NCBI GenBank assembly: GCA_003230015.1
Contig: QIGO01000071.1
Span: forward strand, 1 to 35,043
Source of the DNA: Alphaproteobacteria bacterium
GTDB taxonomy: Bacteria > Pseudomonadota > Alphaproteobacteria > UBA6615
Direction of reading: 5' to 3'
DNA length: 35,043 nt
Every line of letters starts with the position of its first letter. Position 1 is the first letter of the stretch. The notes under the pieces are model-generated. The model saw only the letters and a list, made by a program, of their open reading frames with translations, made no database searches and had not been told where the DNA came from. Position numbers and translations under genes: made by a program. This document shows positions 24,016 to 33,938 of the stretch, in pieces.

Positions 24016-26541
24016 TCAAGTTGGTTTGGCGATCATGTTGGCGAAAAGGCGGAAGGCGCCGGGGACGAGGAAGTCCATCTGGTAGTGCAGGATCAATCCC
24101 GTGTGGGTATGGCGCCCCTTGCCAATGCGGGCCGAAAGCAAGGCGCCCTGGTGGGGCTCTTCGCCGGGATCGGCCATGGCGACGAGGGGCGTATAGGCAT
24201 CGTCCCAGGCCGAAGCGAAATAAAGCCCGCGCTCCTTTACCCAGTCGGCCCAGTCCGCTGGGCCAATGGTGTTGGGGGTGGTCAGCAGCGGATGGTCCGG
24301 CGCCAGAACCGAGACCTGGGCGGCGGGATCGGTGACGCGCCAGCGCAGCGAAGGCTGGCCGATCTTTAAGTAGCGTGGTGGTGTCCGTTGCGGGTCCCAA
24401 TTGTCCCAGGGGCGGTGATAGAGGGTGATCAGATTGCCGCCGGCCTCGACAAAATCATGCAGACGGGCGATCGCCGCCAAGGCGTCAGGGCGGCTGCGGA
24501 AGCCGAAAATGCCGATGACGATGGTGTCATAGTGCTGCAAATCTCCGGTGGCGAGGAAATCTCCGGGGAGCAAGTCAACACGGACACCCAGTTGGCGCAG
24601 CCAATAATGCGCCCGGTCGGAGCCGGAATCGACATAACCGACTTTGACGTCAGGGACCAATGCCGACAAGGACTGCACCGTCACTCGCGCCGGCATAACC
24701 CTGTAACTGTTGCGAATATGCGGATAGGCCACGGGGCGGACGGTGCGGTCGGAACGCGCCGCCGCGGCATTCTCCCGGGTGGCGACCACGTCGATGGTGG
24801 TGCGATGGGTGCCTGGCGTGGCCGCCGGTGGAGTCAGGGTAAAGCTGGCGCTGGCAACCGCACCAGGTGCGGCCAGCGATACTGGCACGGCGGCGGGCGC
24901 GACGGCCCAGCCATGGGGAACGCGGAGCCGGACGGTGGTGTCAATTTCGCTGGCTATATTGCTGAGCGCCTTGACGTCGATGACGAGGGGACTCGCCGGG
25001 CCCTGGATATTGTGAATCACGCCGGTGGGTTCAATTTCCAGCGACACTGGCGGCAACACCGCCAATGTCTGCTCAAGGGCCACCGGGACGGTGATGCGCT
25101 GGCCACCGGCGGTGTAGGTGAGGCTACCGGCAACGGGATCATCGGCCCGATCCGGCCGCGTGTGGAAACGATAGGGGAAGAAAAACGCGGCATCGCCGGG
25201 GGCTGATACCCGGAGGGCGGCGGTCAGGCGATTACCTGCCGCGAGGGAAGCGGCGGTCACGCCGGCACTCTCGGCGTGCCAGCCGTCGGTGACGTCGAGG
25301 CAGAGGGAGAGGCCAGAAATGGCGATGTCGGCGCCGGCAAAAACCGACAAATTTACCGTCGTCGTCTCGCCCGGGCTGAGTTCGTAGCGGTCGGCCTCGG
25401 CGTGGCAGATCAACAGGCAAGCGTTGAAACTGGCGCGGCAGAGCTGCTCCTGCTTGATGGTCAGACGATGGGCGATGTCACGGGCGATCTCGGTATCGTC
25501 GGCCTGTAGTTTTTCGCTGGCGGCACGGATGCGGCCGAGGGCGCGATGAAGGGCCTCGGCGACGCCGGTATTGGCGGGAAAGGCGGCGAAGGCGGCGTCA
25601 ATGGCGGCTTGAGCGGCAACCAAGTGGCCGGCCAGGGCGGCATCGGCGGTCAGACCGGCGAGGTCGGTAAGGGTCCGGGGCAAACCATCGAAAATGCCGG
25701 TCTCGGTCTCGGGGATGTTGTCGAGAGCGCAATATTTGCGGTGCAGAGGCACGCTATCGGGTTTGGCCTCGGCCCAATGGCCCATGCCCTGGGTGCGGTG
25801 AAAGACCCGCGACCATTGGGCGATCTGGGCATAGGTGGCACCGTGGACAGGGTCGAATTTGCCGACATCAACCGACAAGGTGGCATTGGGCGGCGGCACT
25901 TCGTCATCATAAGCGCCGCCGGCACCGGACCAGGCCGGCAAGTAGAATTTTTTGACTTGCCATGGCCGCAGTCCGGCGGCCAGCTGTTGGGGAAAGGCGT
26001 TGGGGTCGGCGGCCAGGGCGATCGCTTCCTCGGTGGCGACAGTGATCGCCCGGTGGTGGCCGTGCTGACCGGGAATATCGAGAAATGTCGGCGCCATGAC
26101 GTCAGGCCGCTCGGTGCGAATGGCCCGCACCAAGCCGGCGACCGTGCGCTCACGGCCCCAATGTTCGAAGGTCTCGGTGGCGGATTTGGAAAGGCCGAAA
26201 TCGAATATCGGCCCGTCAAATTCCTCGTTGAGCCAATAAAGCTGCATATCCAGGACCTTGGCCGCCTGCTCCATCTCGCGGGTGCGCAAGACACCCAAGG
26301 TGGCGCGCAACTCGGTACCGATATCGTTCTGGCCGCCCTCGCCGCGGACGGCGCAAACATAACTCACCCGGACACCGTCGCCCCGCGACAAGCGGGCTAG
26401 CAGGCGGCTGGTTTCGTCGTCGGGATGGGCCCCGGTCTGCATGAAGCTGCCGACCGAGCGCAGGGGCACGAGGCTGTCCCACAAGCTAGCGATGGCGCTT
26501 TGCGAGGCTTGGCGCATGATCCGTAGCTGGCTGGGCGTCAC
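24016..26541 (-). CDS. Large PIG-L family deacetylase with C-terminal GATase-like domain
   Basis: 841-residue three-part protein. Residues about 30-280 are a PIG-L (LmbE) zinc deacetylase: AHPDDE (38-43) supplies zinc ligands and the catalytic Asp, and GQHGHHRAI (159-166) the third zinc His. Residues about 385-600 look like one or two beta-sandwich domains (LSPGETTTVNLSVFAG; PPAATPGTHRTTIDVVA), similar to NEW3-type modules. Residues about 625-841 resemble a class I glutamine-amidotransferase/ThuA-like fold (VKVGYVDSGSD, YDTIVIGIFGFRSRPD, AGGNLITLYHRPWDN). The GTG start has GGGAG eight bases upstream. No signal peptide is apparent. It follows the ROK gene after 17 bases, so both are one transcript, divergent from ABC operon 2. 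The family removes acyl groups from N-acyl sugars and similar amides. Confidence 0.85.
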   Translation of the reverse strand: MTPSQLRIMRQASQSAIASLWDSLVPLRSVGSFMQTGAHPDDETSRLLARLSRGDGVRVSYVCAVRGEGGQNDIGTELRATLGVLRTREMEQAAKVLDMQLYWLNEEFDGPIFDFGLSKSATETFEHWGRERTVAGLVRAIRTERPDVMAPTFLDIPGQHGHHRAITVATEEAIALAADPNAFPQQLAAGLRPWQVKKFYLPAWSGAGGAYDDEVPPPNATLSVDVGKFDPVHGATYAQIAQWSRVFHRTQGMGHWAEAKPDSVPLHRKYCALDNIPETETGIFDGLPRTLTDLAGLTADAALAGHLVAAQAAIDAAFAAFPANTGVAEALHRALGRIRAASEKLQADDTEIARDIAHRLTIKQEQLCRASFNACLLICHAEADRYELSPGETTTVNLSVFAGADIAISGLSLCLDVTDGWHAESAGVTAASLAAGNRLTAALRVSAPGDAAFFFPYRFHTRPDRADDPVAGSLTYTAGGQRITVPVALEQTLAVLPPVSLEIEPTGVIHNIQGPASPLVIDVKALSNIASEIDTTVRLRVPHGWAVAPAAVPVSLAAPGAVASASFTLTPPAATPGTHRTTIDVVATRENAAAARSDRTVRPVAYPHIRNSYRVMPARVTVQSLSALVPDVKVGYVDSGSDRAHYWLRQLGVRVDLLPGDFLATGDLQHYDTIVIGIFGFRSRPDALAAIARLHDFVEAGGNLITLYHRPWDNWDPQRTPPRYLKIGQPSLRWRVTDPAAQVSVLAPDHPLLTTPNTIGPADWADWVKERGLYFASAWDDAYTPLVAMADPGEEPHQGALLSARIGKGRHTHTGLILHYQMDFLVPGAFRLFANMIAKPT

Positions 26542-26558: not shown

Positions 26559-27773
26559 CTATGAGGCTGAATCAGCGGTGGTCCGGTCGCTCTTCAACAG
26601 CATTTGCAGACGCGGACTCATCATCGCGAACAAAGGCAGAACGGCGGCACCCAAAGCGGTGGCCGCGGTGCCGGCGGTGGCCCGTATCAGCCTTGGGTGC
26701 CGGCGATCGCGGCGACTGCTGACCGATGGGTTGAGGGGCTCCAGGCGCTGCAACAGAGCCGTCATGACATTGTCGGGCAAATAACCGCCGAGCAGAATTG
26801 ATTCGGGGTCGAACAGGTTCTCGATATTGGTGATGGCAGTGCGCAGCTGAATCGCGGCGAGATCGATCCAGCGCGTCAGATCGGGGTCGCTGTCGTCAAA
26901 CAGCTGACCGACATCCGCCGCCGAGCGCGCCGGCTTGCCAGCCTCGTGCAGGGCGGCGAAGGCGGCATGAAGGGAAACATATTGTTCCAGGCAGCCGTGG
27001 TTGCCGCAGGGACAGGGACTGCCGCCGGGCACCACAATCATATGCCCGATCTCGCCGGCATTGCCCCAGGCGCCCTTATAGGGCTGACCGTCCAAGATCA
27101 TACCCGAGCCCAGACCGGTGCCGATGAAGAGATAGAAAAAATGTTGCAAGTCGCGCGCGGCGCCGTAAAAACGTTCGCCAACGGCGGCGGCCATGGCATC
27201 ATTCTCGACCAGGACCGGCAGGCCGACATGGGCGGTCAGGGCGGCACTGACATCGATCCCGGACCAGCCAGGCAGCGTCGTCGGCCCGACGGATGTGAGC
27301 CCATCGACCTCAAACGGGCCGGGCATGACGACACCGACGCCAAATATACGCTCGCGGGCCAGGTGGGCCTGCGCAACAATGTCCTCGACGACCGCCGCCA
27401 TGAGCGGCAAGGCTTCCGCCGGGACCGGGTTCTCGACGACGATATCGCGGCGCTGCAGGATGTCACCGGTCAAATTCACCAACACGGCGATCAGATGCTG
27501 GCGATCGATCTGCAGGCCGACCGTGTAACCGCCATCGGGGTTGATGGAGAGGTCCTTGGGCGGCTGACCGCGCTTGACCCGCCGCCGGCCGTCGTTGCGT
27601 AACAGGCCCAAGGTTTCCAGTTCACGGGCGATGTTGGACACGGTTTGCGGCGACAGGGAGGTGGCGCGGGCAATCTCAGCGCGGGATATGGGCCCGGTCA
27701 GGCGCACGGCCTCCAAGACCACACGCCGGTTGTAGGACCGGGTCTGTTCTATGTTGGAACCATTGAGCAACAT
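26559..27773 (-). CDS. ROK-family transcriptional repressor
   Basis: 404-residue NagC/XylR-type regulator. An N-terminal winged helix-turn-helix (SRAEIARATSLSPQTVSNIARELETLGLL, about residues 30-58) precedes a ROK sugar-binding domain with LVENDAMAA (188-196), GTGLGSG (218-224), GEIGHM (His244) and the zinc motif CPCGNHGC (254-261). The ATP-binding loop expected as DIGGT in kinases reads IDRQH (89-93), so it should sense a sugar and not phosphorylate it. It probably controls its own gene, the PIG-L gene and the divergent ABC operon. Confidence 0.9.
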   Translation of the reverse strand: MLLNGSNIEQTRSYNRRVVLEAVRLTGPISRAEIARATSLSPQTVSNIARELETLGLLRNDGRRRVKRGQPPKDLSINPDGGYTVGLQIDRQHLIAVLVNLTGDILQRRDIVVENPVPAEALPLMAAVVEDIVAQAHLARERIFGVGVVMPGPFEVDGLTSVGPTTLPGWSGIDVSAALTAHVGLPVLVENDAMAAAVGERFYGAARDLQHFFYLFIGTGLGSGMILDGQPYKGAWGNAGEIGHMIVVPGGSPCPCGNHGCLEQYVSLHAAFAALHEAGKPARSAADVGQLFDDSDPDLTRWIDLAAIQLRTAITNIENLFDPESILLGGYLPDNVMTALLQRLEPLNPSVSSRRDRRHPRLIRATAGTAATALGAAVLPLFAMMSPRLQMLLKSDRTTADSAS

Positions 27774-27825
27774 GGCCAGGACACGCCTTTTTCGCCGCCA
27801 AATCGGCGGAACTTGGCTTCAAATT

Positions 27826-27855
27826 ATTAAATCAATATGATCGATTTATTGACAG
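27826..27855 (-). promoter_or_regulatory. Candidate promoter for the ROK/PIG-L transcript
   Basis: On the minus strand CTGTCA (27850-27855; 4/6 to the -35 consensus) is followed after 18 bases by TTTAAT (27826-27831; 5/6 to the -10), 53 bases before the ROK start codon. Its -35 overlaps the -35 of the opposite promoter by five bases. Confidence 0.5.
27828..27848. promoter_or_regulatory. AT-rich 21-bp palindrome, candidate ROK operator
   Basis: TAAATC (27828-27833) and GATTTA (27843-27848) are inverted with a 9-base spacer. The site lies within the minus-strand promoter spacer and directly next to the plus-strand -35. AT-rich palindromes of this size are typical of NagC/XylR-type ROK operators, and the site stands out in a GC-rich genome. 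The assignment to this particular regulator is inference. Confidence 0.5.
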
Positions 27856-27878
27856 AAGTCACGAATTGACGTGACAAT
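27849..27878 (+). promoter_or_regulatory. Candidate promoter for ABC operon 2
   Basis: A perfect TTGACA (27849-27854) is followed after 18 bases by GACAAT (27873-27878; 4/6 to the -10). The leader to the binding-protein ATG would be about 155 bases, and in it GGTTGGG (27890-27896) can pair with CCCAACC (27937-27943). Confidence 0.5.
27858..27875. promoter_or_regulatory. 18-bp palindrome in the promoter spacer of ABC operon 2
   Basis: GTCACG (27858-27863) and CGTGAC (27870-27875) form a perfect inverted repeat with a 6-base spacer. It occupies the region between -35 and -10 of the plus-strand promoter, a position expected for a repressor. Its sequence is unlike the neighbouring AT-rich palindrome, so two different proteins may bind here. 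Confidence 0.5.
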
Positions 27879-28038
27879 AGCGGCCAAGAGGTTGGGTGCC
27901 GGGCCTTTTCATAAGAGGTGAGAAAGCTTGCCGTCGCCCAACCACGGTGTAGAAGCAGTTGATGGTGCCAACGGCCGCATGGCGCCCGGGTCAAGCGGTC
28001 CCAGAAGGTGCCAGACAACGATTAAGCGGAGGATCGGA

Positions 28039-29292
28039 ATGAATAAATTTACCAAAACCCTGCTGGCAGGCGCCGTCGCGGCAGGGCTTGGCGCCGGCGC
28101 GGCCGTGCCGGCCAGCGCGCAAACCGAGATCACTTATTGGCAGTACAGCTTTGGCTCCCGTGTGGACGCGATCGATGCGTTGATCGAGCAGTTCGAGGCG
28201 GCAAACCCGGACATCAAGGTCAATCAGGTGAATTTCCCTTACGCGGATTACCGGGTCAAGGTATCCGCGGCGATCCCGGCCGGCGAGGGCCCGGATGTCG
28301 TGCAACTATTCTACGGCTGGCTTGATGCCTACCGGAACGCCGGGTTGCTGTCACCGCTGCCGGCGTCACTGACCAGAGACGTGGCCACGGACTTCTTCCC
28401 GATGGTCTCTTCGATGAATGTCGACGGCGAATTCTGGGGACTGCCAACAGCGGTGCGGTCGCTGGCGTTGTTCTACAACACCGATTTGTTCGAAGAAGCG
28501 GGGCTCAGCGGGCCGCCGGAGACACTCGACGAATTGGTGTCCATGGCCAAGAAACTGACCAAGCGCGACGATAAAGGCAATCTTCAGCAAGTCGGCATCA
28601 CCGTCGCCCCGGCCGGCCAAGATCATCATTGGTGGCGTGAGGTTCTGGTGCGCCAGTTCGGTGGCGTGCCCTATTCCGACGACGGCCGCACGGTGACATA
28701 TAACAGCGAGGCCGGTATCGCGGCCCTGCAATTCTATGTGGACCTGGTGGGCGAAGACGGGGTCAGCGAAATCGGCTTCCTGACCGACGGGCAGACGGCG
28801 TTCAAAGCCGGCAAAGCGGGGATGACCATCGACGGATCGTTCCGGCTCGCCTCGTTCAACAAGCAGCGCGGCCTCAACTACGCCATCACCGAATTGCCGT
28901 CCTACAAGGGCAACCGCTTCAACTACTCTTCCTATTGGGTCAACGGCCTGGCGGCCAAGTCCGAAGGCGAGCAGCGGGTGGCGGCGGAGAAGTTCCTGGC
29001 CTTCATCACCACCAACGACGCCATGCAGCTGTGGCTGGATACGGTGGGCGAACTGCCGGCGCGACCGGAGATCGCCCTGGTGGATGCGAACAAGAATGAC
29101 GAACGATTCGGTCCGTTCGTGCGCGGGCTGGCCTATGCCAACGCCACCCAATTCGTCGACGAGGCGGCACAGCGCCAGATCATGGTCGATATGGTGGATA
29201 ATGTGACCATCAAGGGCTTGAGCGCGGCGGACGCCATCGCCATTGCCGCCGAAGAAGAGCAAAAGCTGCTCGACAAGTTCTACGGCAGCTGA
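28039..29292 (+). CDS. ABC transporter extracellular solute-binding protein (CUT1 family), operon 2
   Basis: 417-residue periplasmic binding protein. The signal peptide ends AVPASA (residue 27). The mature part begins QTEITYWQYSFGSR, then AIDALIEQFEAANPDI, the usual N-terminal signature of sugar-binding family 1 proteins; GEFWGLPTAVRSLALFYN is the hinge region. GGAGG lies seven bases upstream of the ATG; an upstream extension of the open frame to 27928 would mask the signal peptide and is rejected. The ligand is unknown. Confidence 0.92.
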   Translation: MNKFTKTLLAGAVAAGLGAGAAVPASAQTEITYWQYSFGSRVDAIDALIEQFEAANPDIKVNQVNFPYADYRVKVSAAIPAGEGPDVVQLFYGWLDAYRNAGLLSPLPASLTRDVATDFFPMVSSMNVDGEFWGLPTAVRSLALFYNTDLFEEAGLSGPPETLDELVSMAKKLTKRDDKGNLQQVGITVAPAGQDHHWWREVLVRQFGGVPYSDDGRTVTYNSEAGIAALQFYVDLVGEDGVSEIGFLTDGQTAFKAGKAGMTIDGSFRLASFNKQRGLNYAITELPSYKGNRFNYSSYWVNGLAAKSEGEQRVAAEKFLAFITTNDAMQLWLDTVGELPARPEIALVDANKNDERFGPFVRGLAYANATQFVDEAAQRQIMVDMVDNVTIKGLSAADAIAIAAEEEQKLLDKFYGS

Positions 29293-29381: not shown

Positions 29382-30329
29382 ATGAGCTTGCAATCGAGCC
29401 GCGAACCGTTTGACAGCGGTACACCGGGCGTCGTGGCCGGGGGTGTGAAAGGCTTTACGGTGGCCGAGAAAAAGGCCGTTTGGGCCTGGATCTTTCTGGC
29501 GCTGCCGATTGTGTTCTATGTGGGGATCCGTTTCTACCCGACGTTCAGTGCTTTTATAATCTCATTCACGGACTGGAATATCGTCGGCGACAAGAATTTC
29601 ATCGGCCTCGAAAATTACATCCGCCTGACGCAGGATGCGGTGTTCTGGAAAGTCCTGGTCAATACCCTGCTCTACGGCATTATAGGCTTGCCGGTCAGTC
29701 TGATCCTGGCATTCGTGGTGGCCTATTATCTGGACCAAGTGCGGTTCATGCATGGCTTTATCCGGGCGCTGTATTTCCTGCCCTTTCTGACGACCGCAGC
29801 GGCCATGGGCTGGGTTTGGCGGTGGTTCTATCAACCGGTCCCGGTTGGTGTGTTCAATCTCATCCTGGTGGATTTCGGGTTCGACCAGCAGCCCTTCCTG
29901 CGTTCGACCACGCAGGCGCTGCCGGCGGTTCTGGCACCGGCGATCTGGGCCGGGTTGGGGTTCCAGATCGTCATTTTTCTCGCCGGTCTGCGGGCTATTC
30001 CCAGCACCTATTACGAAGCGGCGAAAATCGATGGTGCCGGTGCCTGGCTCATTTTGCGGGAAATAACGGTGCCGCTGCTGAAACCGACGACGGTGTTTCT
30101 GATCGTCATCAGTACGATCGGATTCCTGCGCATCTTCGATCAAGTTTTCAACATCACCAATCAGGGCGATGGCGGGCCCCTGAACGCGACCAAGCCGATG
30201 GTGCTCTATATTTTCGAGACGGCGTTCGACAGTTTCGATATGGGGTATGCGACGGCGCAGACCGTTATTTTGTTCTTGATGCTGCTGGTGATCACGCTGC
30301 TGCAGCTCTGGTATTTGAGGAAAAAATGA
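29382..30329 (+). CDS. ABC transporter permease (MalF/UgpA type), operon 2
   Basis: 315-residue permease with six predicted helices; the first (WIFLALPIVFYVGIRFYPTF) follows a 35-residue cytoplasmic N-terminus. The ATPase-contact loop is EAAKIDGAGAWLILREITVP. The gene overlaps the next one by four bases (ATGA). The N-terminal 25 residues are polar and variable. Confidence 0.92.
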   Translation: MSLQSSREPFDSGTPGVVAGGVKGFTVAEKKAVWAWIFLALPIVFYVGIRFYPTFSAFIISFTDWNIVGDKNFIGLENYIRLTQDAVFWKVLVNTLLYGIIGLPVSLILAFVVAYYLDQVRFMHGFIRALYFLPFLTTAAAMGWVWRWFYQPVPVGVFNLILVDFGFDQQPFLRSTTQALPAVLAPAIWAGLGFQIVIFLAGLRAIPSTYYEAAKIDGAGAWLILREITVPLLKPTTVFLIVISTIGFLRIFDQVFNITNQGDGGPLNATKPMVLYIFETAFDSFDMGYATAQTVILFLMLLVITLLQLWYLRKK

Positions 30330-31198
30330 GCGCCGAGGCGATCGCCACCCCGCTGACCGACGCTTCCGACCGGCTGAGCCGGCCGTTGCTGCGGCCGAGC
30401 AAGGTGCTGATGTGGTCGGTGCTGATGGTCGGCGGCCTGCTGATGGTGCTGCCGTTCATCTTCATGGTGTCCACCTCGTTGAAATTCAACAACGAAATCT
30501 ATGAATTGTCGCTGCTGCCAAAAGAGCCGACCTGGTCGAATTATCAATTCCTGTTCGAAGAAACGCGGTTCTTCCGTTGGTTCGTGAACTCGCTGATTAT
30601 CGCCACGATCACCACGGTGTCGGTGCTGTTTTTCGATAGCCTGGTTGGCTACACCTTGGCGAAGTTCAAGTTTCGCGGCCGGATATTCGTTTTTGTCGCC
30701 ATTCTGTCAACGCTGATGATCCCCACCGAGATGCTGATTATTCCGTGGTTTCTGCTGTCGCGGGATCTCGGCTGGCTGGATAGTTATTGGGGCATCATGT
30801 TTCCCGGCATGATGACGGGTTTTGGTACGTTCCTGATGAAACAGTTTTTCGAATCCGTGCCGGACGATTTTCTCGATGCCGCGCGCATCGACGGGCTGAA
30901 CGAATTTCAGATCTGGTGGGAAGTGGCCATGCCGTTGGTCAAACCGGCGCTGGCGGCGCTGGCGATCTTCATCTTTCTAGGCAATTGGACGGCATTCCTG
31001 TGGCCGCTGATCGTGACCACCTCGGAAGACCTCTACACCATCCCCGTGGGCTTCGCGGCGTTCTCGGGCGAATTCACCACGGACTGGGAGCTGATCATGA
31101 CCGGGGCGACGGTGGCGACGTTGCCGACGCTGCTGATTTTTATCATGTTCCAAAAATTCATTATCCGTGGCGTCATGCTCACCGGCCTCAAGGGCTAA
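30326..31198 (+). CDS. ABC transporter permease (MalG/UgpE type), operon 2
   Basis: 290-residue permease of standard length, with six helices starting at about residue 28 and the contact loop DAARIDGLNEFQIWWEVAMP. The ATG overlaps the stop of the first permease. Unlike the corresponding permease of operon 1, it has no additional membrane segments. It ends with the common GVMLTGLKG motif. Confidence 0.92.
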   Translation: MSAEAIATPLTDASDRLSRPLLRPSKVLMWSVLMVGGLLMVLPFIFMVSTSLKFNNEIYELSLLPKEPTWSNYQFLFEETRFFRWFVNSLIIATITTVSVLFFDSLVGYTLAKFKFRGRIFVFVAILSTLMIPTEMLIIPWFLLSRDLGWLDSYWGIMFPGMMTGFGTFLMKQFFESVPDDFLDAARIDGLNEFQIWWEVAMPLVKPALAALAIFIFLGNWTAFLWPLIVTTSEDLYTIPVGFAAFSGEFTTDWELIMTGATVATLPTLLIFIMFQKFIIRGVMLTGLKG

Positions 31199-31215: not shown

Positions 31216-32715
31216 ATGGTGGCGGATAACAGCCAGTTTCCCGCCGATGTCTACAAGGACACGGTGCTGGCACCCTTGTTCGACGGGTCGAAGGTGCATT
31301 TCATCGGCGATCTCATGCGGATCAATTTCGCCCATGGGGTGATGCTGGCGGAGCAGGATATTTGCGCGGCCGAGGCGATGACCAAAATCCTCGCGGCCCT
31401 GCGGCGGATCGAGGGGGAACTGGACCCGGAAGCCATGGCCTATAGCGGCGATTTCGAAGATTTGTTTTTCTATGTGGAAGGCGAATTGACGAAGCAGCTG
31501 GGCGCCGATCTGGCGGGCATGCTGCATACCGGGCGCAGCCGCAACGACATGGACCACACGGTCTTCAAGATGCAACTGAAACGGCGGCTGGCCAGCCTAT
31601 TGGGCCGGCTTGGCGAGCTTATCGACATTCTCGAAGGGGTGGCGAGCCGCAACCGGGATACGCTCGTCGTCGCCTACACCCATGGTCAGCCGGCACAGCC
31701 GACGACTTACGGCCATTATCTGGCGGCGTTCATCGAAGTGCTGCTGCGTGATTTCGGGCGCCTGCTGCACGCCGCCGGGGCGCTCGATCTGTGCAGCATG
31801 GGGGCGGCGGCGATCACCACGACAGGGTTTGCCATCAACCGCGAGCGCATGGCCGACTTGCTGGGCTTCGCACAAGCGCAGGAAAATTCCTATGGCTGCA
31901 TCGCCGCCTGTGACTACATCACCGGCGTCTACAGCGCCATGCAGGTGATGTTTATCAATATCGGCCGCTTCGTGCAGGATCTCAATCAGTGGACGGGGTT
32001 CGAGAACGGCCAGCTCACCGTGCCCAATGCCTATGTGCAGGTCAGTTCGATCATGCCACAGAAACGCAATCCGGTGCCGGTGGAGCATTTGCGTTTGATC
32101 AGCTCACTGGGAGCGGGGCATTGCGCGACCATCATCAACGTCATGCACAACACGCCCTTCACCGATATGAACGATAGCGAAGGGGAAGTTCAGATCGCCG
32201 GCTATGGCGCGTTCGATACCGCCGAGCGGGCGCTGGCGTTGCTGGCGGGCCTGGTGGGCGCGGTTAAAATAGACGAGGAACGGGTGCGGCAGCAGATGGA
32301 AAAAAGCTGCATCACTATTACCGAACTTGCCGACTCCCTGGTGCGGGTCGAGGGCATCTCGTTCCGCCAGGCCCATGGCGTGTCGGGGGTGCTGGCGCGC
32401 CATGTGGTCGACACCGGGTCGCGTTTGAGCCAGGTCAAGTTCGAGGCTTTCGTCAAGGCCTTTGGCGACCAGATCGGCCGGCCGCCAAAACTGAGCGAGA
32501 GTGAGTTCCGGCGCCTGCTGACGCCGGAACATTTCATCGCCGTGCGGGAGAGGCCGGGCGGCCCGGGCGCCGCGGCGCTGAAGGCCAGCCTGGCCGGGTA
32601 CCGGGCAACACTGGCGGGGCTGCGCGGCGAGGCCAACAAACTGAACCAGAGCATGGCGGCGGCGGATGCGCGGCTGCGGGCGGCGGTTGACCGCTATGTC
32701 ACGGCTCATACCTAG
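31216..32715 (+). CDS. Argininosuccinate-lyase-family enzyme in a sugar-importer operon
   Basis: 499-residue member of the fumarase/aspartase/argininosuccinate lyase superfamily. The three conserved regions are present: HTGRSRND (104-111), THGQPAQP with the catalytic His156, and the flexible signature loop SSIMPQKRNP (277-286) with the catalytic Ser. The usual N-terminal WGGRF motif is absent, and the segment corresponding to the NKDLQE region of true argininosuccinate lyase reads PFTDMNDSEGE. No arginine genes are nearby. Superfamily members remove fumarate from C-N-linked succinyl compounds, and the relative EDDS lyase acts on aminopolycarboxylates. I infer a catabolic C-N lyase for the compound imported by this operon. 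The ATG at 31216 has a weak ribosome site (CCAAGGTG). Confidence 0.82.
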   Translation: MVADNSQFPADVYKDTVLAPLFDGSKVHFIGDLMRINFAHGVMLAEQDICAAEAMTKILAALRRIEGELDPEAMAYSGDFEDLFFYVEGELTKQLGADLAGMLHTGRSRNDMDHTVFKMQLKRRLASLLGRLGELIDILEGVASRNRDTLVVAYTHGQPAQPTTYGHYLAAFIEVLLRDFGRLLHAAGALDLCSMGAAAITTTGFAINRERMADLLGFAQAQENSYGCIAACDYITGVYSAMQVMFINIGRFVQDLNQWTGFENGQLTVPNAYVQVSSIMPQKRNPVPVEHLRLISSLGAGHCATIINVMHNTPFTDMNDSEGEVQIAGYGAFDTAERALALLAGLVGAVKIDEERVRQQMEKSCITITELADSLVRVEGISFRQAHGVSGVLARHVVDTGSRLSQVKFEAFVKAFGDQIGRPPKLSESEFRRLLTPEHFIAVRERPGGPGAAALKASLAGYRATLAGLRGEANKLNQSMAAADARLRAAVDRYVTAHT

Positions 32716-32724
32716 GAGCGCTAG

Positions 32725-33819
32725 ATGGCGAGCGTATCGATCCGCAAAGTCTATAAATCCTATGGCAAGGTGCAAGTAATCCACGGCCTGGATCTGGAGA
32801 TCGCCCATAACGAGTTCGTGGTGCTTATCGGTCCGTCGGGGTGCGGCAAGTCGACGATGCTGCGCATGATCGCCGGGCTGGAGGATATTACCGGCGGGGA
32901 AATTCACATTGGCGAGCGCGTGGTCAACAATGTGGAGCCGAAGAACCGGAATATCGCCATGGTGTTCCAGAATTACGCGCTCTATCCCCATATGACCGTG
33001 TTCAAGAATATTTCCTTCGGGCTGCGGGCGGCAAAATTGCCGAAACACGAGGTCGAGAAGAAGGTGGCCGAGGCGGCGCGCATTCTCGGCCTGGAGGATT
33101 TGCTGCTGCGGCGGCCATCGGAGCTTTCCGGCGGCCAGCGACAGCGGGTCTCCATGGGCCGGGCCATTGTGCGGGACCCGCAAGTGTTCCTGTTCGATGA
33201 ACCGCTGTCCAATTTGGACGCCACGCTGCGCCATCAAATGCGCACGGAAATCAAACTGCTGCACCAGAAGGTGGCGACGACGATCGTCTATGTCACCCAT
33301 GATCAGATCGAAGCGATGACCCTGGCGGACCGTATCGTCATCATGCGCGACGGCCATATTCAGCAAGTGGGCAAACCTGGTGAACTCTATCACAACCCCA
33401 AAAATACTTTCGTCGCCGGCTTCATCGGCAGCCCGAAGATGAATATGCTGCCCGGCGAAGCGCGTTCACATAACGGCGCCCCGCATCTCGCCTTGGGCGA
33501 GGATTTGCTGATCCCCTTGCCCGATCGCGGCGCTCACTTGCGCGAGGGGCAACGCGTGATCATGGGAATCCGCCCCGAGGATGTGGTCATGGTGAACGGC
33601 CAGGCGCCGGGGGCCAACTCGTGGCTGCATGACGCGCGCATCAATGTGGTGGAGCCGTTAGGCTCGGAATCCCTGCTTATCCTGGAATTGGGCGGGCAAA
33701 GTTTCACCGGCAAATGCGCCGGCCGGATCGAGCCGGCCGCCGGGACGACCGCCCAATTCGCGCTCAATCTAGAGAATATGCATCTGTTCGATCACGAGAG
33801 CGAACAGGCGATCAACTAG
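32725..33819 (+). CDS. ABC transporter ATP-binding protein (MalK/UgpC type), operon 2
   Basis: 364-residue ATPase, with Walker A GPSGCGKST (36-44), signature LSGGQRQRV (134-142), Walker B VFLFDEP (154-160) and switch His in VTHDQ, then a TOBE-like regulatory domain with GIRPEDV. AGGAG lies about nine bases before the ATG. It is the last gene of the operon. The lyase gene inserted before it is an unusual order. No clear terminator follows. Confidence 0.93.
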   Translation: MASVSIRKVYKSYGKVQVIHGLDLEIAHNEFVVLIGPSGCGKSTMLRMIAGLEDITGGEIHIGERVVNNVEPKNRNIAMVFQNYALYPHMTVFKNISFGLRAAKLPKHEVEKKVAEAARILGLEDLLLRRPSELSGGQRQRVSMGRAIVRDPQVFLFDEPLSNLDATLRHQMRTEIKLLHQKVATTIVYVTHDQIEAMTLADRIVIMRDGHIQQVGKPGELYHNPKNTFVAGFIGSPKMNMLPGEARSHNGAPHLALGEDLLIPLPDRGAHLREGQRVIMGIRPEDVVMVNGQAPGANSWLHDARINVVEPLGSESLLILELGGQSFTGKCAGRIEPAAGTTAQFALNLENMHLFDHESEQAIN

Positions 33820-33871: not shown

Positions 33872-33894
33872 AAATTATTAGATTTAATAAGTTT
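33872..33894. repeat. AT-rich palindrome downstream of ABC operon 2
   Basis: TTATTA (33875-33880) and TAATAA (33885-33890) are inverted around GATT, with two more pairs further out. The sequence TCAAATTATTA at its left (33870-33880) is identical to 27820-27830 minus the first base shift (both contain CAAATTATTA) beside the palindrome in front of the operon. It might be a second regulator site, a terminator-like hairpin, or part of the island edge. A 7-base direct repeat CTAAATT follows at 33908 and 33926. Confidence 0.35.
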
Positions 33895-33938
33895 AATGAT
33901 GGTCTTGCTAAATTTACTAAACCCTCTAAATTGGATGT

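Follow-up and report, generated by a model that had tools for sequence, protein, structure and literature searches.

Palindromic operators are a common trait of ROK-family regulators according to a study on NagR of Bifidobacterium longum subsp. infantis, which describes a negative regulator for which 10 of 11 predicted operators overlap the -10 or -35 element (PMC9599254). The sites of NagC and Mlc are described in a second source as having an organisation common to other ROK sites (PMC4856308). The locus analysed here resembles the NagR system (PMC9599254) in combining a palindromic ROK operator with sugar ABC transporter targets, but NagR acts globally through 11 operators, whereas one site per genome was found for the ROK regulator studied here. 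The organism and the regulated genes are also different.

NagC and Mlc of Escherichia coli are ROK repressors that share with our regulator a helix-turn-helix and a ROK domain, and the NCBIfam models of both return 125.6 bits each for it; however, this value is far under the equivalog cut-offs of 650 and 530, which rules out an assignment as NagC or Mlc. Two relatives of solved structure, 1z6r and 9srt, carry the name Mlc. Listeria Lmo0178 (PDB 5f7p, 5f7q and 5f7r; 8e-36) is one of the nearest full-length ROK regulators with a solved structure, although it is distant from our protein, and the solute-binding protein encoded at the locus also matches Listeria Lmo0181. These three structure entries presumably concern a sugar gene cluster. 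None of the open-licence papers in our literature search was recognised as dealing with the present gene cluster or operator. Plasmids of Paroceanicella, Pantoea vagans and Klebsiella likewise have a similar operator and a ROK gene divergent from a solute-binding protein–permease–permease–ATPase operon; in Klebsiella and Pantoea vagans, however, a sugar kinase replaces the lyase present in our operon and no TTGAC is fused to the site.

The window, by which we mean the whole 35,043-nucleotide stretch analysed, contains an intergenic region at 27774–28038 that separates a ROK-family transcriptional regulator gene on the minus strand (26559–27773, 404 aa) from a sugar ABC transporter operon on the plus strand. 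The regulator matches Pfam MarR_2 at residues 19–64 and ROK at residues 85–379 (4.1e-51), giving it the N-terminal winged helix-turn-helix and ROK domain that make up the regulator architecture and define a ROK-family repressor. A GQP motif, which we take to be the DNA-touching wing, follows the helix-turn-helix and is retained in 80% or more of the 33 ROK rows compared. The operon begins with a solute-binding protein gene (28039–29292, ATG at 28039; Pfam SBP_bac_8 and SBP_bac_1), the homologs of which are mixed sugar binders, followed by a permease gene (29382–30329; BPD_transp_1) and a second permease gene of approximate start (30320–31198, within the ORF 29480–31198), which was assigned from its translation and from the corresponding Paroceanicella position, annotated as carbohydrate ABC transporter permease. 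Next come an argininosuccinate-lyase-like gene, also of approximate start (31234–32715; Pfam Lyase_1 and ASL_C2), and a MalK/UgpC-type ABC transporter ATPase gene (32725–33819; NCBIfam UgpC subfamily, 492.3 bits against a cut-off of 432). Paroceanicella profunda has the five genes in this same order (solute-binding protein, permease, permease, argH-like lyase, ATPase), and there too a lyase-like gene sits within the sugar transporter operon (L062). Downstream of the ROK gene, and possibly co-transcribed with it, is a gene for a PIG-L deacetylase-like protein (24016–26541, minus strand; Pfam PIG-L, 1.7e-16) of 841 residues with an NPCBM-associated domain; a like gene was seen by eye 3' of the ROK gene in three further loci (L013, L019 and L025).

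The initial annotation, whose letters and coordinates proved exact, placed two different palindromes in this intergenic region and named the ROK protein as a candidate for one of them. For the first palindrome this proposal is supported by a matrix, a consensus scan, the closest ortholog and a count over upstream regions, all of which are comparisons of sequence. TAAATC-N9-GATTTA at 27828–27848 is the core of a longer, imperfect 10-5-10 palindrome, ATTAAATCAA-TATGA-TCGATTTATT, and very probably serves the ROK protein encoded next to it as its operator. The predicted operator (ATTAAATCAA-N5-TCGATTTATT) is 25 bp long and occupies 27826–27850 with its centre at 27838; it lies in the ROK gene's own promoter region, and gene and site are conserved together. 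When scored with a symmetric matrix made from 15 orthologous sites, none of them from the window's own family, position 27826 reached 33.5 bits, the top value in the 35-kb window; the next separate place reached 21.6 and the maximum over 30 whole-window shuffles was 15.2. The place scoring 21.6 is an AT-rich stretch at 33873–33897, in the gap separating the ABC ATPase gene from the gene that follows, and was rejected as an operator as it has no adjacent ROK gene.

Other framings of the site were considered. A symmetry centre at 27836 (TCA-ATA-TGA) gave fewer paired positions by eye than 27838, and for L015, L017 and L018 a shorter site of 21 bp was considered but abandoned because the 10-5-10 frame suits nearly all sites. 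A third perfect inverted repeat, TCAATA-N9-TATTGA (27832–27852), overlaps the operator out of register with it and extends into the beginning of the -35 box.

The upstream regions of ROK orthologs were drawn from a scan of named genomes, from searches of further genomes and from annotated plasmids (6 loci taken from 361 matching records), and a like site was seen by eye in most of those that face a transporter gene. Searching eight genomes with the consensus ATTAAWTCAA-N5-TTGAWTTAAT at up to three mismatches returned exactly one site in six of them, namely the genome of the window (G000) and all five further genomes that carry an ortholog, and in each case immediately upstream of the ROK ortholog. 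The two genomes of the window's family that lack an ortholog at E <= 1e-70 gave no site, and a reversed-pattern control gave none in any of the eight. As there is one consensus site per genome, the regulator looks local, and no second consensus site that would extend the regulon beyond the locus was found in G000, the sequence of which is ~75% complete, so that others may be missing.

Of the 20 consensus positions, 16 or more are matched in 21 of 38 regions upstream of ROK genes, compared with 3 of 3800 shuffled regions; this count is not independent, the consensus having been read from some of these regions, whereas the matrix test on the window is independent, as are the plasmid loci. The set includes the window and the paralog L002 and leaves out L025, which shares a contig with L007; L012 and L023, being partial matches, stand outside the comparison. 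Fewer than 14 positions match in 13 of the 38 (L009, L010, L024, L029, L030, L031–L034, L036, L061, L062 and L065), although TTGAC still adjoins the weaker site in L029, L030, L062 and L065. On the plasmids, which were not used for the matrix, a perfect ATTAAATCAATCAAATTGATTTAAT precedes the transporter genes in Klebsiella and Pantoea vagans (two of the six loci) and three further loci have operator scores of 24–28; the Pantoea sp. BRR-3P plasmid locus, where the ROK gene does not face a transporter gene, has no operator site.

Four loci (L008, L011, L062 and L065) have QAVAN in the recognition-helix stretch in place of the common QTVSN and also an altered right half-site, TTATnTTATT or TTATTTTATT, which hints at a joint change of recognition helix and half-site in these four. 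The ROK paralog L002 (G000:C16:10238-11392), 33% identical and with one TAG within the match, has a similar site ~170 bases upstream, AATAAATAATGCAGACTGATTTAGT followed by TATTGACG, which scores 22.9 with the matrix and was missed by the strict pattern but found by a relaxed one at one mismatch. The paralog loci L003–L006 score at most 10.4.

The closest ortholog, L007, comes from the window's family and encodes a ROK protein 64% identical to ours. Over 27825–27855, which covers the operator and the -35 box, 30 of 31 bases are identical in L007, while the remaining intergenic sequence has diverged and the flanks hardly align. The right end of the operator runs directly into a consensus -35 box, TTGACA (27849–27854, plus strand), the first two bases of which are the final two of the operator; a -10-like GACAAT follows at 27873–27878 after an 18-base spacer (AACAAT after 17 bases in L007). 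This inferred transporter promoter, TTGACA-N18-GACAAT, scores 10/12 against consensus, and a promoter scan of 27600–28100 found two promoter-like sites against a mean of 0.3 in shuffles. The operator overlaps the core promoter of its target, ending inside TTGACA, with the promoter itself recognised as a consensus match.

The operator runs into TTGAC in the register of the window in 13 of the 38 ROK upstream regions, and elsewhere the site is kept without an adjoining TTGAC. Among 10 such fused loci scored for a -10 element (L030, L062 and L065 were left out), only the window and L007 match at four of six positions; the other eight match at two or three. On a ROK tree the fused TTGAC takes at least three changes among 32 labelled rows and is clustered, though not in one clade; this was a quick tree with long branches, computed without L027, L030, L009, L010, L012, L023 and L024, in which L031–L034 and L036, with weak best sites, were labelled as having an operator without fusion. 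The first palindrome together with its adjoining -35 box is beyond chance. The operator, its conservation, the fixed -35 register in a subset of orthologs and the sole consensus site in the genome sequence are all computed features.

The two promoters had been described as back-to-back with overlapping -35 boxes. The plus -35 box is conserved, but the minus one is not beyond chance, because its CTGTCA arises automatically from TTGACA followed by G (TTGACAG): TTGACA plus any base gives at least four of six matches to TTGACA on the opposite strand. The best minus-strand pair, CTGTCA (27855–27850), N18 and TTTAAT (27831–27826), occupies 27826–27855 and scores 9/12, a value reached or exceeded in 95 of 1000 base shuffles of the region; the same pair is present in L007, and the promoter scan over 27600–28100 reported no minus-strand promoter. 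Nevertheless, a minus-strand ROK promoter here is plausible, as the left end of the operator, read on the opposite strand, gives TTTAAT, which lies ~50 bases from the start codon of the ROK gene. This putative promoter is almost wholly within the operator, and conservation cannot confirm it because its own letters belong to the operator and to the plus -35 box.

It is likely that a single operator controls this locus, with a ROK dimer on 27826–27850 repressing the transporter operon, and probably the ROK gene itself, until released by a sugar. Here we infer binding by the window's own ROK protein, repression as opposed to activation, the ROK promoter and the sugar. A ROK dimer would occupy the 25-bp palindrome, the right end of which supplies the first two bases of the transporter -35 box, while the left half and the central bases would lie over the -10 element and spacer of the putative ROK promoter. 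Given this overlap with both, one dimer on one site would serve both transcripts, blocking RNA polymerase at the transporter operon and probably also at the ROK gene. Binding of the transported sugar or one of its products to the ROK domain might then cause the protein to leave the DNA, so that both transcripts would rise.

Alternatively, the ROK protein might activate the transporter promoter from the same operator and repress its own gene only. The operator is centred ~47 bases upstream of the inferred start of transcription, a usual position for an activator. ROK regulators can either activate or repress, as stated in the NagR study (PMC9599254). Against this, two bases are common to the operator and the -35 box, and in L020–L022 the sole TTGACA is upstream of the site, placing the site on the -10 element or start, an arrangement that suits a repressor; this reading was made by eye on three loci of one genus with a weak -10. 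We regard activation as unlikely.

The region had also been read as a switch in which two proteins, or two sites of different sequence, control the divergent transcripts. A second regulator would in this case act through the second palindrome, GTCACG-N6-CGTGAC (27858–27875), while ROK holds the first. The repeat is perfect, sits between the plus -35 and -10 elements, touching the latter, and has a single perfect copy in the genome of the window. However, inverted repeats with perfect 6-base arms and a spacer of 3–20 are common, being present in 126 of the 574 61-base tiles of the window, and sites with at most one mismatch number 10 in G000, the window's own included, against 8 for the control. 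Such near-copies were sought in four genomes and exceed the control in G392 (19 against 5) and G231 (24 against 10), where they are located elsewhere.

The palindrome is also missing in L007, which has four mismatches, and in the other regions examined: it is absent from 29 other upstream regions scanned (L025, a copy of L007, L030 and the six plasmid loci being outside this count), in which the best matches carry two to five mismatches of 12, the closest being one of two mismatches at a different place in L028. It was rejected as a conserved element. The initial annotation had proposed conservation in orthologous intergenic regions as a test for its palindromes, and the two part ways on it, the first being conserved and the second not; a divergent switch with two regulators calls for both. 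GTCACG-N6-CGTGAC is probably a chance repeat and would have no part in the proposed switch, and control by two proteins is very improbable. We give as little credence to a lineage-specific gain of the repeat in the promoter spacer as the site of a second regulator; if true, an ancestral one-protein ROK switch would have become a two-input switch.

That the first palindrome merely reflects AT-rich promoter sequence to which no specific regulator binds is hardly credible, since the 10-5-10 symmetry and the fixed C and G of the core (TCAA, TTGA) are kept across families and the site occurs once per genome, at the ROK gene, even though it is AT-rich within a window of 62% GC and the other AT-rich place, at 33873, reaches 21.6 with the matrix.

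Repression from a single ROK operator is the reading that we retain, and with it a guess from raw sequence becomes a specific and testable 25-bp ROK operator. Its consensus holds in several alphaproteobacterial families and on two gammaproteobacterial plasmids, and among the genomes searched the predicted target of this ROK subfamily is a single locus per genome. Biologically, this would be an ordinary local switch for sugar uptake.
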